From a virus, in the IMG/VR virus record IMGVR_UViG_3300049825_000379, positions 1-28,982 of that record: DNA of 28,982 nucleotides. The stretch is one strand, 5' to 3'. Under the pieces are notes generated by a model that ran no database searches, was not told the origin of the DNA, and worked only from the letters and a program-made list of their open reading frames with translations. A program made the position numbers and the translations under genes. Of the stretch, positions 15,131 to 24,696 are shown one piece after another (position 1 is the stretch's first letter; every line of letters begins with the position of its first letter).

Positions 15131-15667
15131 TTAGAACGGCAGCGCGTCAAAGTCTTCGCGCGGCTTGTTGATTTTTTCGACCTTCGATGGAGGCTCCACT
15201 ACGACTAGTGGTTTACCCGTAGCGCACATCAGAACGGCGATGGCATCGGCCTCATTGTGGTCTTGAGGGTTGAACCCGAGCTGCGCCGCGCGGACCATCA
15301 TCTCCTGCTTCGTCGCGCGCCCGGAGCCCGTGAAGGCTTTCTTAACCGTACCCGAGTGGAACTGCTCGACGGTGATTCCGCGGGCATCGGCGGCCATGTA
15401 GAGCACCGCCAGGAACCCGCCGCGCACTTCAGCTGTGCCGCCGTGATCGTTGGGCGCGGAGAAGGCCTTCTCGACCGCGATGCGCCGGATGTTCGGATAG
15501 CGGTCGAAGGCGCAGCGCAGCCAGTCGGAGAAGCGCGCGAAGCGGCGCCCGGGCTCCGTGGCCTTGTGCGCGAAGGTTTCGGTGCCGGATTCGACCTTGC
15601 CATCAGGGCGCAGAACCGCCCAGCCGGTGACGGTCGCGAGATCGAGGGCCAGCACGGCTTTAGACAT
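15131..15667 (-). CDS. RuvC-like Holliday-junction resolvase
   Basis: From ATG 15667 the 178-residue protein starts MSKAVLALDLATVTGWAVL, the first RuvC strand with catalytic Asp9. Glu66 in RRIAVEKAF and the Asp pair in PQDHNEADAIAV (about 136 and 141) complete the RNase H-fold metal site. The ATG overlaps the stop of the upstream HTH gene by 8 bases; a longer upstream frame has no support. Phage enzymes of this type cut branched DNA made during replication or recombination, clearing it for packaging. All catalytic residues are present. Confidence 0.87.
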   Translation of the reverse strand: MSKAVLALDLATVTGWAVLRPDGKVESGTETFAHKATEPGRRFARFSDWLRCAFDRYPNIRRIAVEKAFSAPNDHGGTAEVRGGFLAVLYMAADARGITVEQFHSGTVKKAFTGSGRATKQEMMVRAAQLGFNPQDHNEADAIAVLMCATGKPLVVVEPPSKVEKINKPREDFDALPF

Positions 15668-15956
15668 GGCGCCAGGTCCTGCGGCTGATGACGTGCTGGA
15701 CGGTAGCCACCACGACTTGCAGGTCAAGTTGCTCGCGTATCTCGAAGGCGACGAAGCCTGCAGTGGCCATCGTGCGGATGCTGCGCACCTGGTCTGGCGT
15801 TAGCTTTGCCGCGGGCGACCACGGCGGGCGCTCAGCGAGGGTGCGCTCGCGCTCCAGCGCCTGCAGCGCGATCTGTTGCGACATTGCTTGGCGGGCGGCG
15901 AATTCGGCAGCGTTTCGAGAACGCAGTTCGGCGAGGCGATCTTGGGCGTAGCTCAT
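15660..15956 (-). CDS. Small helix-turn-helix DNA-binding protein
   Basis: ATG 15956 overlaps the helicase stop (ATGA). The 98-residue protein has an N-terminal charged helix (YAQDRLAELRSRNAAEFAAR). Its C-terminal HTH (LTPDQVRSIRTMATAGFVAF followed by IREQLDLQV and HVISRRTWRHV) resembles the DNA-binding tail of phage HNH endonucleases and related small regulators, but there is no HNH nuclease part. It probably binds DNA within the replication module. Longer upstream starts would overlap the helicase and lack a ribosome binding site. Confidence 0.72.
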   Translation of the reverse strand: MSYAQDRLAELRSRNAAEFAARQAMSQQIALQALERERTLAERPPWSPAAKLTPDQVRSIRTMATAGFVAFEIREQLDLQVVVATVQHVISRRTWRHV

Positions 15957-16885
15957 GAATCCTCTCCAGGTTGGCGTAACGCAATGTCGTAAGGCTCGGG
16001 CGGATTGGTCGCATCTTGCGTGAATCGAAAGCTTTGCTGGTCGTACCACAACTTGACTGGCCCTTCCCACTCGCCGTGTCGTTGCTTATCGCACAGCAAA
16101 TAGGCATCCGGCTCCGACCAGTCCCCGCTTCCGCCTTTCTGACGGTCTGCCTCCTTTCGCTTGTTGCGCCATACGGTAAACACGTTGTCCACCTGGTCCG
16201 TGATCGAGCTCGAGCCTTTCGCGTCAAACTTTCCCGGCATCGTCCGTTCGTCAGCCATTTTCTTCGCGTGGTGAATCAAGTGAATGTGCATGCCGGTGTC
16301 TAGCGCTATCGTGCACAGCGAGTTGACGAAGTCTTTCTGTCCGTTGTAATCGTCGTCACCGCGCACGCACTTCATGAGCGAGTCGAGAAAAAAATGTTGA
16401 ATACCAAGCTGGTCGTGACACCAGCGGATGACCGCCTGCATCTTCTTCGGATCGACCATGCCAAGCTGGTCGTAAATCCACAGACGGTTCTCAGTCCAGT
16501 TGTGGAAGCCTCGAATGAACGGTATTTGCGGCTCATGTGATGCGGCGGCTTGCCGAACCATCCGGCTCAACGTCTTAACCGGCTTCATCTCCAGCGATGC
16601 GATGCACACCCGCTGCCCCTGCCAGCAGAGGGAGAGTGCAACCTCCGAGGTCATTGCGCTTTTGCCATGGCCGTTGATCCCAGGCCAGAGCGAAACCTCG
16701 CCCGGACGTAGCCGGATGTCATGCTTGGTCTTCGACCATGGCAATACACACCCGGTGTGCTCCGCTGGCATGCACATCGAGTCGATGACACGCTGTGCCA
16801 TCGTGCAGGCGGCAATGACCTTTTCGCCCGGGTCCGGCTCTTTCAGGTACTCGGAAAGATCGATGCTATCGGGTATAACGTTCAC
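15953..16885 (-). CDS. DnaB/T7-type replicative helicase or RecA-fold ATPase
   Basis: The 310-residue protein consists of a RecA-like motor: Walker A GINGHGKS (residues 69-76), a catalytic Glu in SLEM (about 99), Walker B HFFLDS (164-169), the IHLIHHAKK motif (about 201-209) and the late segment ITDQVDNVFTVWRNK. These match the ATPase domain of SF4 helicases such as DnaB, T7 gp4 and Twinkle. There is no primase domain and no full DnaB N-terminal domain, so it is a stand-alone motor. It would unwind the fork, perhaps loaded by the replication protein encoded just upstream. Confidence 0.88.
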   Translation of the reverse strand: MNVIPDSIDLSEYLKEPDPGEKVIAACTMAQRVIDSMCMPAEHTGCVLPWSKTKHDIRLRPGEVSLWPGINGHGKSAMTSEVALSLCWQGQRVCIASLEMKPVKTLSRMVRQAAASHEPQIPFIRGFHNWTENRLWIYDQLGMVDPKKMQAVIRWCHDQLGIQHFFLDSLMKCVRGDDDYNGQKDFVNSLCTIALDTGMHIHLIHHAKKMADERTMPGKFDAKGSSSITDQVDNVFTVWRNKRKEADRQKGGSGDWSEPDAYLLCDKQRHGEWEGPVKLWYDQQSFRFTQDATNPPEPYDIALRQPGEDS

Positions 16886-17339
16886 CGAAAATATCCCCCT
16901 CGGTTAGTTTGTGTGAGCGAAGCACCATGCGCCAACGAGCGCGATGCGCCCATTCCGGGAACCACTTCGCGGCATGCTTCTGGATCGCGCCAGGCGCCCC
17001 AGCAAGCGCATCCAGCTCGCCAACAAAGTCACCCCAGTTGCGCGGGCTGAAGTCCGGCCAGATGCGCCAGCCCTGCTTTGCATCTTGCGCCCAAAGATCG
17101 ATGCTCTTGGGATACCAAGCTATGTCCGCCAATGCGCCTGCAACGCCGCTACCGCTATTGCACCAGACCAGTACGTTGAGGCCAGCCAGGACGGTCCAAT
17201 CGCAGCCTGGGCGGTAGTGAATCGTGGGGTTCGTGTACGGCGTCGCGCCGACCAGCGAGACAATGACCTCGTCCGCGGGCGCGCTCCCATTCCTGCGAGC
17301 TTCTAGGATGCGCTGAGCGCCTGGAGCGAGTTCAGTCAT
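16866..17339 (-). CDS. Unknown protein between replication protein and helicase
   Basis: A 157-residue, Trp-rich protein (about eleven Trp) whose ATG overlaps the stop of the replication gene and whose end overlaps the helicase start by 20 bases. A central segment (LAGLNVLVWCNSGSGVAGAL then DIAWYPKSIDLW) looks like a Rossmann-type or nucleotide-handling core, but no standard motif is complete. The tight overlaps suggest a replication role, for example helicase loading or priming. The family is not recognised. Confidence 0.72.
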   Translation of the reverse strand: MTELAPGAQRILEARRNGSAPADEVIVSLVGATPYTNPTIHYRPGCDWTVLAGLNVLVWCNSGSGVAGALADIAWYPKSIDLWAQDAKQGWRIWPDFSPRNWGDFVGELDALAGAPGAIQKHAAKWFPEWAHRARWRMVLRSHKLTEGDIFGERYTR

Positions 17340-18091
17340 TTCGCCCTCGCAAACATTTCAAGCTCTTGAGCAGAGCGAGTCGATGTTGGCATTTCGACAG
17401 GGAGCTTCGCCCAGTTATCGGTGATCGCGTTCATGAAGGCTTTGTCCCAGTCGGCGTACCTGTAGCCTTTCGCGGCGACCTTCAGCAAGAATGACTGCAA
17501 GTGCAGGTCAAGTCGGGTATGACCTTTCGTGGTCGCCCACTTTCGTACTGCCTCGGATATTTCAAATCCTTCAGGCAGGTCTGTCAGGATGGGTTTCGAG
17601 CGACGCCTAATATCTTTAGAAGAAGAAGAAGAAGAAGAAGAAGAAGAAGAAGAAGAAGGGGTTGGCTGAAGGTTGGCATCAAGGTTAACCTTATCTTCAA
17701 CCTTGTCCATATCCTTGGAGATAACCTCCTTGAGTTTTTTCAAGGTCGGATTTCCGCCTAAGTGCCCGCCCTGACTACGTTTTTCCCTAACTAGCTCATC
17801 CCTAATCATGCGGCGAGACATGATGGTGCCGTCACCATCTGTGCTAAGCACATTGGCCTGTGACAGCTCCTCAAGCCAACCTTCAACCTCAGGTAAGGTT
17901 GCGCCCACAATGCTCGCAAGGTTGGCTGGAAGGATAACCTTCTGCCCAACCTTGAGGTAACCATAGGGTGAACCTTGATGCATTAGGCAAAGCATTTCAA
18001 TCCAGAGGCCGCGGGCGCCAACTGAACACGCGCGAAGGCCAAGGTCACGTTGCCAATCGCCTGGGTAAAACTGGAAAGATGGGCGCTTCAC
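17336..18091 (-). CDS. Replication initiation-type protein, probable origin-binding protein
   Basis: The chosen start is GTG 18091 with GGAG 10 bases upstream; TTG at 18097 is closer to it and less likely. The N-terminus (KRPSFQFYPGDWQRDLGLRA then GARGLWIEMLCLMHQG) is the winged-helix-like domain of phage replication proteins related to DUF1376. A flexible linker with 13 consecutive Ser near residue 150 leads to a C-terminal helical domain (ISEAVRKWATTKGHTRLDLH onward) that could contact the helicase. It lies upstream of the helicase and contains iteron-like DNA repeats within its own coding sequence, as lambda O does. Residues 1-90 are the likely DNA-binding part. Confidence 0.78.
   Translation of the reverse strand: MKRPSFQFYPGDWQRDLGLRACSVGARGLWIEMLCLMHQGSPYGYLKVGQKVILPANLASIVGATLPEVEGWLEELSQANVLSTDGDGTIMSRRMIRDELVREKRSQGGHLGGNPTLKKLKEVISKDMDKVEDKVNLDANLQPTPSSSSSSSSSSSSSKDIRRRSKPILTDLPEGFEISEAVRKWATTKGHTRLDLHLQSFLLKVAAKGYRYADWDKAFMNAITDNWAKLPVEMPTSTRSAQELEMFARAK
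17618..17656 (-). repeat. (TCT)13 trinucleotide repeat encoding poly-Ser
   Basis: Thirteen perfect TCT codons lie in frame inside the replication gene (AGA on the plus strand). All thirteen Ser codons are identical although the gene otherwise mixes Ser codons, so slippage rather than selection on the protein probably built the tract. It gives a pure polypurine/polypyrimidine stretch beside the iteron-like repeats. Length changes would stay in frame. Confidence 0.9.
17669..17976. other. Candidate replication origin with iteron-like repeats
   Basis: The hexamer AAGGTT or its complement AACCTT occurs ten times here: 17669, 17681, 17687, 17699, 17878, 17895, 17918, 17936, 17948 and 17971. Several are extended to CAAGGTTG/CAACCTTG. 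About 0.15 copies would be expected by chance in 308 bases. The copies fall in more than one reading frame, so they are not a protein repeat. They form two clusters inside the replication gene, one beside the (TCT)13 tract, which mirrors the lambda origin (iterons plus purine-asymmetric DNA within gene O). Confidence 0.62.
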
Positions 18092-18104
18092 GGTCAATTC
18101 ACTC

Positions 18105-18252: not shown

Positions 18253-18282
18253 ATTATTGTCGAGCTATTGCGGCAGAGTCAA
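18253..18282 (-). promoter_or_regulatory. Promoter for the replication gene
   Basis: Minus-strand TTGACT (18282-18277) and AATAAT (18258-18253) are spaced by 18 bases, each matching the sigma70 consensus at 5 of 6 positions. The -35 overlaps the stop codon of the upstream gene. Transcripts starting near 18246 would carry a leader of about 155 bases that includes the foldable element at 18105-18182. Confidence 0.6.
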
Positions 18283-18658: not shown

Positions 18659-18912
18659 AGATGTGCCTCTGCGTCAGCCACGCGCTCTGCGAAGGTTGCG
18701 GGCTCGAATCCGGGGATGCGGCGCAACTTGTGCTCGGGGTAGTCGCGCGATTTGAGCGCTGGCCCACGAACTTCGCCGTTGCAGTGATAGGTGGCGTAAT
18801 CAAAACGAAGCCCGCCAATAATCACGGCGGTGCAGCCGTCTGCGAGCGAAAAAGGCAACTCAACGTGCCCAAGCAGGCGCGTATCGCAACAACAACGAAT
18901 CGGGATTTTCAT
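18655..18912 (-). CDS. Small phage protein of unknown function
   Basis: From ATG 18912, which overlaps the upstream TGA (TGATG), this is an 85-residue protein starting MKIPIRCCCDTRLLGHVELP. The N-terminal Cys triplet and a later YHCNG give a possible metal site, and the rest appears beta-rich. Upstream extensions of the frame lack a ribosome binding site. Tight overlaps on both sides make it a genuine member of the leftward early operon; no family recognised. Confidence 0.65.
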   Translation of the reverse strand: MKIPIRCCCDTRLLGHVELPFSLADGCTAVIIGGLRFDYATYHCNGEVRGPALKSRDYPEHKLRRIPGFEPATFAERVADAEAHL

Positions 18913-19133
18913 CACAGGCTCTCCAAGTTGTCGTGGCCCAGGTACGGATTGTCGCCGCGCGCACCGATGAGCAGCTGCTCGAAGGTAAAGCCGCGCAGCT
19001 TGCACTCAGCGCGGACCTTCGCAAGCGCTTGACGTTCGATCTTGTGCACGTGCCCGTGGCTGCACCCCATAACCTGCGCCACTTCGGCGCAAGTCATGGC
19101 GTAGCAGTTGTCCGCAAGGATCTTGGCGGGCAT
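18912..19133 (-). CDS. Sigma-factor region 4-like DNA-binding protein
   Basis: The 73-residue protein contains MTCAEVAQVMGCSHGHVHKI followed by ERQALAKVRAE, the HTH of sigma70 region 4 (normally the -35-recognising part: an A-x-x-x-G turn, then V..IE..AL.K). It lacks regions 1-3, so it cannot act as a full sigma factor. Small phage proteins like this may bind RNA polymerase or DNA to redirect transcription. ATG follows the upstream TAA by a few bases. The fold is well supported; the role is inferred. Confidence 0.75.
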   Translation of the reverse strand: MPAKILADNCYAMTCAEVAQVMGCSHGHVHKIERQALAKVRAECKLRGFTFEQLLIGARGDNPYLGHDNLESL

Positions 19134-21404: not shown

Positions 21405-22226
21405 ATGACTCTTGTTTTGCAAGAACCCTCCGAGCGCGAGCTGAGCGCCGACTATTTTGATGCGGATGGCATCAATTGGTCGACGCTGAAGGCGATGCGA
21501 GAGAGCCCGAAAGCTTACCTCTACGCAGCCGAAAACGACCGCGAAGACAAGATTTCCTTCATGGTCGGGCGCGCGGTGCACACGAAAGTTTTCGAACCGG
21601 ATTTATTCGATGCCGAGTTCGCCATCTGGACCGAAGGCGACCGCCGCGGGAATGCCTGGAAAGCGTTTGCCGAGGCGCACGCGAGCAAGACCATCCTGAA
21701 GACTGACGAGATGATTCTCGTGGACGCGATGGTCGCCGCAGTTCGCAACGATCCTGTCGCGAAGCCTTTCCTTTCCGGCGTATTCGAGCGGCCTATTTTC
21801 TGGATCGACCCGACCACTGGATTGCTCTGCAAGGCGCGGCCTGACATGGTCGACAAATTCAAAGAACGCGTGGTCGACCTGAAGACGTGTCGCAGCATTG
21901 ATCCTCGCCGCTTCGGCAACGACTGCGCGCGGCTTGGGTATCACCTGCAGATGACGCACTACTCGAACGGCGTGAAGACTGGTCTCGGGTGGGAGCCGAA
22001 AGAGCATGTGCTGATCGCGGTGGAGAAAGCGCCGCCGCACGATGTTGGCGTGTTCTTGATTTCGGCCGTCGACATTGGCAATGCGGCCGAGGAAGTGGCT
22101 GCGCTGCTCGTGCGCGTCCTGGAATGCACCGAGGATGGTGCGTGGCCTGGTCGCTTTTCCGAGGTGCAGGAACTGCAAATTCCGTCGTGGGTGAATGGCG
22201 ACGTGGAAATCGAGGAGATTCAGTAA
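21405..22226 (+). CDS. PD-(D/E)XK exonuclease, RecE-like
   Basis: The 273-residue protein carries the nuclease core: GRAVHTKVFEP (residues 55-65), KARPDMV with catalytic Asp147, VVDLKT with Asp158 and Lys160, and LGYHLQMTHYSNG with Gln182. This is the order seen in RecE/lambda-type exonucleases and the PDDEXK family annotated DUF3799. It probably degrades one strand of linear DNA to make overhangs for annealing. AAGGAACGAGAC precedes the ATG. The next gene overlaps it (TAATG) and is the likely ssDNA-binding partner. Confidence 0.85.
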   Translation: MTLVLQEPSERELSADYFDADGINWSTLKAMRESPKAYLYAAENDREDKISFMVGRAVHTKVFEPDLFDAEFAIWTEGDRRGNAWKAFAEAHASKTILKTDEMILVDAMVAAVRNDPVAKPFLSGVFERPIFWIDPTTGLLCKARPDMVDKFKERVVDLKTCRSIDPRRFGNDCARLGYHLQMTHYSNGVKTGLGWEPKEHVLIAVEKAPPHDVGVFLISAVDIGNAAEEVAALLVRVLECTEDGAWPGRFSEVQELQIPSWVNGDVEIEEIQ

Positions 22227-23649: not shown

Positions 23650-24696
23650 ATGAAGCTGACTTTCAGGTATCGGGTGAAATCGATGAACGGGTTGCTAAAT
23701 AGGCAAGCCCGCGCGGTCAACTTCGTCTGGAACTATTGCAACAACGTCCAGAAGCACGCTCTGAAATGGGGCACGAAGTGGCCTAGCGGCTTCGATCTCA
23801 ATCGCCTTACCACCGGCTCATACCATGAGCTTGGGATCGCATCCGGGACCATAAACGAGGTTTGTGAGAGGTATGCGAAGTCCCGCTTTCAGCAAAAGAA
23901 GTCGCACCTTCGTTATCGCGGTAAGCGCTCCCTTGGTTGGGTGCCAATGAAGGGCTACTTGGTTAAGCAAAGCCCGGACGGTTTTGTGTTTCAGAAAAGG
24001 TTGTTCCGAATCTTTAAGAGCCGGCCTTTGCCGGACGGCAAGATATGCGACGGAAGCAACTTCAGCGAGGACGCCAAGGGAAACTGGTTTCTGAATATCG
24101 TTGTTGAGGTCGCCGATACTCCTGCGCGCAGCGTGGAATCCGGGATCGGCATTGATCTTGGTCTGAAGGATTTCGCAACCCTTTCGACTGGCGAGAAAGT
24201 CGAAACTCCGCGCCACTACCGGCGCATTGAGGAACGACTGGCGACAGCCCAGCGGGCACGAAAGAAGCGCCAAGCGAGAAACCTTCACGCGCGCATCGCT
24301 GCTCGCCGCAAAGACTTCCTTCACAAACTCTCGACGCGCATCGTTCGGGAGTTCGACCACATCGCCGTGGGCAACGTGAATGCGGCCGGACTTGCCAAGA
24401 CCAGCATGGCGAAATCCGTACATGATGCAGGCTGGTCTAACTTTAGAAACATGCTCCATTACAAAGCCATTGGGCACGGGGCGTCATTTGAAGAGGTTAG
24501 TGAAAGTTTCACCTCCCAAACCTGCTCTTCGTGTGGTGCGCTGCCACCGGAGAGGCCGAAAGGTATCGCGGGTTTGCGAATAAGAGAGTGGGTTTGTGGT
24601 GACTGCGGGGCCGTCCACGACCGCGACACAAACGCAGCTATCAACATTCTCCGACGCGGGCATGCGTCGCTTGTAGAAGGAGTCAGTGCACCATGA
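23650..24696 (+). CDS. tnpB: TnpB-like RNA-guided nuclease (IS605 OrfB family), no TnpA
   Basis: The 348-residue protein has an N-terminal OrfB-type region (NRQARAVNFVWNYCNNVQKH), RuvC-I IGIDLGLKDFATL with Asp169, a zinc finger with Cys292, 295, 316 and 319, and RuvC-III HDRDTNAAINIL with Asp326. In TnpB these bind an omega RNA and cut DNA. The usual RuvC-II Glu is Gly241 (IAVGNVNAAGL). Glu281, 282 and 285 lie 40-44 residues later, the region where Fanzors and some TnpBs carry a relocated catalytic Glu, so the enzyme may still be active. It sits in the operon without recognisable element ends, and its stop overlaps the next ATG. A CGACGC/GCGTCG hairpin lies at 24652-24669 in its 3' end. Confidence 0.9.
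   Translation: MKLTFRYRVKSMNGLLNRQARAVNFVWNYCNNVQKHALKWGTKWPSGFDLNRLTTGSYHELGIASGTINEVCERYAKSRFQQKKSHLRYRGKRSLGWVPMKGYLVKQSPDGFVFQKRLFRIFKSRPLPDGKICDGSNFSEDAKGNWFLNIVVEVADTPARSVESGIGIDLGLKDFATLSTGEKVETPRHYRRIEERLATAQRARKKRQARNLHARIAARRKDFLHKLSTRIVREFDHIAVGNVNAAGLAKTSMAKSVHDAGWSNFRNMLHYKAIGHGASFEEVSESFTSQTCSSCGALPPERPKGIAGLRIREWVCGDCGAVHDRDTNAAINILRRGHASLVEGVSAP
24652..24669 (+). ncRNA. Hairpin at the 3' end of tnpB, possible omega RNA element
   Basis: CGACGC and GCGTCG pair around the loop GGGCAT within the last codons of tnpB. TnpB guide RNAs usually come from the 3' end of the gene and the adjacent element end, so this hairpin is a candidate scaffold piece. No right-end boundary or guide start could be located. 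Confidence 0.3.

Follow-up and report, generated by a model that had tools for sequence, protein, structure and literature searches.

A dense array of AAGGTT/AACCTT sites, held at fixed spacing, lies inside one gene of the bacterial virus studied here. We interpret it as the origin from which the phage starts theta replication, embedded in its own initiator gene (probability about 0.88). The window is the whole virus record that was analysed (28,982 bases), possibly a fragment. An initial annotation of this DNA had proposed a lambda-type origin, with iteron-like repeats and a polypurine tract. The present analysis supports this proposal: the iterons are located in the initiator gene, an A+T-richer, strand-asymmetric tract follows them, and helicase or loader genes are found downstream. 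From this arrangement, we infer a mechanism in three steps. The winged-helix N-terminal domain of the initiator would bind the AAGGTT half-sites (dyad AAGGTTAACCTT), which follow registers of 12 bp in the linker-coding part of the gene and 11.67 bp in the upstream cluster, to form a phased nucleoprotein complex. The linker array, fixed at 18 nt from an ACCCC element, would then direct the opening of the (TTCWTC)n tract and/or the capture of one of its strands. Finally, the C-terminal domain of the initiator and the downstream loader or DnaB-like helicase would be recruited onto the opened tract.

The gene carrying the array (17336..18091, minus strand) encodes a replisome-organizer-like protein of 251 residues. 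The listed ORF begins with a TTG at 18097, but the GTG at 18091 is the more likely start codon because relatives begin with M-K-R-P-S-F. The idea that the product is the initiator, which had been presumed at first, is strengthened by a match to the replisome organizer family phrog_13246 (E 4e-6) and by a predicted wHTH close to those of plasmid replication initiators. The only other PHROG match is phrog_24189, whose function is not annotated. phrog_13246 is also matched by the N-terminal region of all ten relatives scanned (1e-4 to 1e-11). No Pfam model matches the window protein and a PDB search with its sequence gave nothing significant. The predicted layout comprises an N-terminal winged helix (residues ca 1-115), a disordered polyserine linker and a C-terminal helical domain (175-230). 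An AlphaFold2 model built from 61 sequences has a pLDDT above 90 over most of regions 11-100 and 171-220, and below 50 in regions 131-138 and 146-158. The best rows of a VIA-align comparison correspond to the plasmid replication initiators 4pql, 4pt7 and 5kbj (Z about 8, 79-87 residues). In the comparison with the pSK41-type RepA winged helix, the best Z is 8.3 (80 residues, 2.2 Å), CRP and LexA wHTH rows being barely lower (7.5-7.8), and the match to RepA_N initiators has 9% sequence identity only. Search against viral models using Foldseek gave matches that include DUF1376 and phage replisome-organizer proteins. A winged helix is the clear prediction for the fold of the DNA-binding domain. 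Upstream of the gene, a sigma-70-like promoter match (TTGACT-18-AATAAT, 18253..18282, minus strand) may be at chance level, three such matches being found versus 2.0 expected in shuffles.

Exactly ten AAGGTT/AACCTT sites are present in the 308 bases from 17669 to 17976, in two clusters (17669-17704 and 17878-17976), which bears out the count first given. The whole record contains 24 of them, as compared to 8.5 ± 3.1 in shuffles. This cluster is the densest among the strand-symmetric hexamers of the window, the runners-up reaching 7 per 308-base stretch. An unguided repeat search also puts the initiator-gene region first, with 78% identity over 37 nt between 17918-17954 and 17669-17705, showing that the upstream and linker clusters resemble each other. 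As the annotation had noticed, the sites occur in more than one codon phase; in fact all three are used (7 sites in phase 0, 2 in phase 1 and 1 in phase 2). Synonymous codon shuffles of the gene gave 2.9 sites on average and 9 at most, and none of 20,000 reached ten. Re-coding according to the codon usage of the genome (20,000 trials) gave a mean of 1.04 and a maximum of 6. Together with the invariant codons of 48 genes, confined mostly to the sites and the joint (see below), these values agree with the earlier view that the repeats are kept as DNA. The extended octamer CAAGGTTG fared less well. Three exact copies do lie in the initiator gene, but two others are found elsewhere in the record, making it less special. 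We rejected it as the repeat unit, 2/5 of its exact copies being outside the gene. Judging from the sequence, the functional unit would be better described as AAGGTT, or as the dyad, on a 12-bp (11.67-bp) register. A GC-skew switch had also been suggested as a check. No decisive one was observed at the gene: the skew over the record shows a small sign change near 17.5 kb, with comparable swings elsewhere, and is uninformative.

Relatives were searched for in two ways. The DNA pattern AAGGTTAWCCTTN5CAACCTT, derived from the site clusters, was found in 95 stretches of 2.9 million viral contigs, 94 of them in the initiator gene family. Read backwards as a control, the pattern gave 1 match in the same contigs. 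The lone match outside the gene family (L048:6401-6424, CAAGGTTAACCTTCCATCCAACCTTG) has no recognisable initiator reading frame and is possibly an origin or an operator elsewhere. Because a DNA-pattern search brings ascertainment, the protein search used two peptide patterns lying outside the repeats, FQFYPxD and GGxxGGNPxL. It confirmed 463 relatives. The best 80 of these 463 were kept, three from the first protein search were added, and removal of near-duplicates left 48 genes including that of the window. All 48 non-redundant genes have 4-10 AAGGTT sites, including 25 genes without the seed DNA pattern. In the 47 relatives, the density is 21.8/kb in the gene region versus 0.68/kb in the flanks, and it is at background level over the 3 kb upstream and the 3 kb downstream of the gene. 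Thus, a similar repeat density elsewhere in the genome, which the annotation had named as a point against its own reading, did not occur. Nor did the second such point, homologous genes of related phages without the repeats, since all 48 family genes have them. More distant relatives, at 26-33% identity, do lack the AAGGTT unit.

Codon conservation was then analysed in the 48 genes. Out of 106 testable codon columns, 22 have one codon at 90% or more. Twenty of these 22 are AAGGTT/AACCTT codons or belong to Q-P-T-P-S-S-S-S, written as CAA, CCA-ACC-CCT-TCW-TCT-TCW-TCT. The neighbouring codons, for residues that are equally conserved, drift freely; on this drift, the alignment that also took in pattern-found genes is illustrative only. 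A search of 50,697 phage records revealed no family member. Among isolate phages, the only relative of the window protein is a distant one in Pam1, with 43% identity over 101 residues and no polyserine. Phages matching the C-terminus of one relative (e.g. Limnohabitans phage DC33 and ctEw122) were discarded, their N-termini being unrelated and the signals absent. In plasmids, matches are limited to C-terminal or distant N-terminal ones. A scan of cellular genome contigs revealed 8 relatives, at 29-45% identity, without AAGGTT arrays or polyserine. Pseudomonadota genomes gave a match in 6 of 398; one of the six was read, and the array is absent from it.

The sites obey strict registers. Positions were counted from the start of AAGGTT; for AACCTT, 6 was subtracted from its start, which places the two halves of the dyad in one register. 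The upstream iteron cluster is located in the winged-helix-coding part of the gene (17878..17976, minus strand). It contains AAGGTT, in either orientation, at 17971-17976, 17948-17953, 17936-17941, 17918-17923, 17895-17900 and 17878-17883, as well as a near-match, ATGGTT, at 17959-17964 (minus strand). Across the 48 genes, upstream sites are found only at positions -23, 0, 12, 24, 47 and 70 from the first KV codon, that is to say at about 11.67 bp multiplied by -2, 0, 1, 2, 4 and 6. Steps of 23 bp shift the codon phase where 24 would keep it, as would be expected if selection acts on helical phase and not on coding. The linker iteron array (17669..17728, minus strand) contains exact AAGGTT/AACCTT at 17699-17704, 17687-17692, 17681-17686 and 17669-17674. 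Two degenerate sites on the minus strand, AAGGAT (17711-17716) and GAGGTT (17723-17728), follow the same 12-nt register. In the 48 genes, linker sites are located 18, 30, 42, 54 or 66 nt before ACCCCT, four copies being off by one base, and RAGGWT is exactly 18 nt before ACCCCT in 46 of them. The window has the full linker set: AACCTT (18), AAGGTTAACCTT (30) and AAGGTT (42), plus two degenerate sites, AAGGAT (54) and GAGGTT (66). Spacing in the upstream cluster is no less rigid than in the linker array. Its role may be to bring in additional initiator, to bend the DNA or to regulate copy number.

The joint element ACCCCT (17657..17662, minus strand) is preceded by a CCA codon (CCAACCCCT). Its ACC and CCT codons are 100% invariant in the 48 non-redundant genes and are kept in a superfamily with other iterons, described below. 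Then comes a (TCT)13 tract coding for 13 serines (17618..17656, minus strand; family form (TCWTCT)n), the presumed unwinding or strand-capture tract. Its position beside the sites and its thirteen TCT triplets are exactly as first annotated, and the exact triplet tract 17618-17658 reads (AGA)13.7 on the plus strand. TCT and TCA make up 442 of the 447 serine codons in 47 tracts, and AGY is absent, although it accounts for 169/610 elsewhere in these genes. Alternate tract positions are TCT in 203 of 221 cases, pointing to TTCWTC as the DNA repeat unit. The GC content of the tract is 34% over 27 nt family-wide, as compared to 48% for the genes' first 300 nt, and the tract is strand-asymmetric, with the TCW repeats on one strand. 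Its length ranges from 5 to 20 codons and behaves like that of a hexamer microsatellite; repeat slippage could account for part of its uniformity. The description as a polypurine tract stands in part. The tract is pure purine/pyrimidine in the window, but most relatives have (TCATCT)n, and the conserved feature is ACCCC(TTCWTC)n. A triplex (H-DNA) reading was set aside because most relatives carry TCATCT and not pure TCT. BLAST of the joint and tract against phages gave matches that appear to be of low complexity.

Could the sites be operators, at which the initiator or another phage regulator represses or times its own or downstream transcription, the tract being incidental? The wHTH fold is common to transcription regulators, inverted half-sites resemble operators, and autoregulation could coexist with origin function. 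However, the sites are intragenic, starting about 120 nt past the start codon, and the 3 kb on either side are at background density. Moreover, the array is at fixed distances from ACCCC(TTCWTC)n, which an operator does not need, and the superfamily retains the tract as the repeats change. We consider operators an unlikely explanation.

Evidence for this superfamily came from a search for ACCCCTTCWTCTTCWTCTTCWTC, which gave at least 120 stretches. Among the matches listed, 62 are new loci, 36 of which have the AAGGTT-family motif. The remaining listed loci are mostly clearly related wHTH proteins with other upstream repeats (AACCAA, TAACCA, AAGCAA, CTGACC and others); a few are truncated copies of the AAGGTT family. 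Over the 60 nt leading up to the joint, self-identity peaks at lag 12 (0.48) and lag 24 (0.45) in the AAGGTT group, and likewise in 26 others (0.40 and 0.43), as compared to ca 0.22-0.24 in a control region. These peaks in both groups suggest that the iterons differ in sequence but keep the 12-nt step and the joint; individual statistics for non-AAGGTT iterons are weaker. The linkers of three superfamily members, L247, L251 and L210, are highly repetitive (PKPQPKPQPNPNQSPNQSPNQK; repeated LKGQSKGQPTP; VKQEVKQEVKQEDKQ) and appear to contain iterons of a different unit in front of the ACCCC joint.

The C-terminal domains are of at least 10 types, exchanged just after the tract. Of 429 gene pairs whose N-termini are at least 85% identical, 172 differ in C-terminal type, and in some of these the N-termini are fully identical. 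The C-terminal parts of L041, L083, L148 and L170 match the O-like replication initiation families phrog_678/345, and DnaT is matched by the C-terminal domains of three members. One may ask whether ACCCC(TTCWTC)n is simply a short homology for swapping unrelated C-terminal modules, kept or homogenised by exchange and slippage. Such a recombination linker would leave unexplained the fixed iteron codons among freely diverging ones, the placement of the nearest iteron at 18 nt in 46/48 genes and the absence of AGY codons in genes that are 45-60% identical. The change of C-terminal type exactly after the tract, in the 172 pairs mentioned above, and the microsatellite-like variation of tract length are in its favor, but swapping at this place is also expected if an origin separates two functional halves. 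Overall, we find the linker explanation quite improbable. A further proposal, to which we give somewhat less than even odds, is that ACCCC(TTCWTC)n serves phages as a portable opening module with sequence specificity, corresponding to the DnaA-trio/DUE repeats. It would be common, unchanged, to a large superfamily of environmental phages with initiators recognising differing iterons at fixed 12-nt steps in front of it, and would also act as a joint for swapping helicase-recruiting C-terminal domains.

Selection on the mRNA, either through hairpins formed by inverted AAGGTT/AACCTT or through codon choice governing translation or frameshifting, is very unlikely. The region folds somewhat better than shuffles (z -2.5), a score that inverted repeats yield automatically, but most of the sites form direct repeats with a 12-bp step, and strict 12- and 23-bp spacing is conserved rather than a pairing geometry. 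The predicted fold leaves the (TCW)n tract unpaired, and an Rfam search gave no matching family. Ordinary coding of a low-complexity K-V-N/polyserine linker with biased codons is hardly credible: 7/10 sites are indeed in phase 0, as Lys-Val or Asn-Leu, but codon shuffles never give ten, three phases are in use, invariant codons occur only at the sites and the joint, and the sites encode unrelated peptides (HQGS, KVGQ, GATL, VEGW). Each rival explains parts of the data, and none accounts at once for the fixed distances and for the confinement of the sites to the initiator gene. The interpretation as an origin is the one we prefer.

The genes downstream of the initiator include a helicase or a helicase loader in several of the members checked. 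DnaB-like helicases are found in the window and in L133, DnaC-like loaders in L131 and L134, and a helicase-loader match (phrog_2289) in L132. In the window, the initiator gene is followed by an ORF of 157 residues without family match (16866..17339, minus strand), a possible loader or adaptor judging by its position only. Next is a DnaB-like replicative helicase with a RecA fold (15953..16885, minus strand; PF03796 E 3e-10, phrog_5482 1e-65, phrog_239 primase/helicase 1e-53). A RuvC-like Holliday junction resolvase (15131..15727, minus strand; PF02075 E 2e-10, phrog_159 5e-23) lies within the same replication cluster. In several relatives, DNA methyltransferase genes are found directly downstream of the initiator (L133:4672-5391, L142:4073-5572, L176:3576-4796). 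Upstream of the replication genes, the window encodes a 73-residue sigma-70 region 4-like protein (18912-19133, minus strand; PF04545 1.5e-7). Farther away, a DUF3799 PDDEXK-type gene (21405-22226, plus strand; 1.2e-37) precedes an ORF of about 210 residues without family match, and the two are possibly a recombination pair. A TnpB-like gene (23650-24696, plus strand; Cas12f1-like TNB domain 3.5e-23, OrfB_IS605 5.7e-19) is also present in this phage genome, with no adjoining TnpA-like ORF noticed.

These results provide a sequence-defined candidate origin for a large group of uncultured phages, one search having given over 460 related contigs. The joint and tract stay constant as iterons and C-terminal domains change, so that the superfamily amounts to a swap experiment made by nature on the handover from an initiator array to the unwinding element and the helicase loader. 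This handover has been described as still open (PMC5043065). In viral metagenomes, origins for which GC skew gives no answer can also be found through codon-level conservation combined with spacing.

In phage lambda, the N-terminal half of the O protein binds DNA, its C-terminal half binds a partner, and the origin lies between the two. The origins of lambda and Stx phages are located in the middle of gene O, with iterons that bind O and an A+T-rich tract having almost all its purines on one strand (PMC7466680, PMC5043065). The system described here is alike in that its putative origin lies midway through the initiator gene, with dyad-like iterons, an adjoining A+T-rich strand-biased tract, a DNA-binding half before and a partner half after. 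It differs in its elements. Lambda has four 19-bp inverted-repeat iterons (six in Stx) and a 40-bp A+T tract. Here, half-sites of 6 bp, or dyads of 12 bp, recur on a 12-bp register; the ACCCC joint is invariant, the tract is built of TTCWTC hexamers, and there are two phased clusters. The upstream one of these, within the region coding for the DNA-binding domain, has no counterpart in lambda. In addition, the N-terminal domain matches replisome-organizer families and not those of O. In SPP1, oriL lies in gene 38 and has direct repeats and a DUE; gp38 is the replisome organizer, gp39 the loader and gp40 the helicase (PMC6316719). The likeness, by description, is that of an origin within the replisome organizer gene, used with a phage loader and a DnaB-type helicase. 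Unlike SPP1, whose oriR forms another origin about 13 kb from the first, the 28,982-base record showed no second full origin.

RepA_N initiators bind semi-palindromic direct-repeat iterons and have host- or genus-specific C-terminal domains (PMC7145576). The predicted winged-helix domain of the window protein matches best the structures 4pql, 4pt7 and 5kbj, from RepA_N plasmid initiators (pSK41, pTZ2162) and PLE RepA. RepA_N iterons, however, have another sequence and length, and the RepA_N Pfam model PF06970 has no match among 61 members at E 0.01. On the basis of these sequence comparisons, the protein is not assigned to the lambda O or RepA_N families. DnaA and plasmid initiators capture one strand of short repeats adjoining double-strand sites (PMC8287927, PMC4081077). 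Duplex binding sites at a defined distance, followed by a short spacer rich in GC and by short tandem repeats, are features common to our system, the bacterial basal unwinding system (DnaA-boxes, GC-rich spacer, DnaA-trios) and the DUE repeats of RK2 and F. In contrast to the DnaA-trio system, the initiator here is a non-AAA+ wHTH protein, the TTCWTC tract differs from the DnaA-trio consensus and single-strand binding is putative. Near DnaA boxes (at most 1 mismatch) occur in the 48 family genes at 1.13/kb within 600 nt of ACCCCT versus 0.63/kb elsewhere, an approximately 1.8-fold difference to be read with the resemblance of some iteron variants to the box. Variants such as GTTAACCACA are one mismatch away from a DnaA box. 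The open-access literature gave no match for the dyad and no description of such an origin type. The best reading of these comparisons is that of a lambda-type origin of a kind not yet described there, which would work like the lambda/Stx, SPP1, RepA_N and DnaA/plasmid origins.
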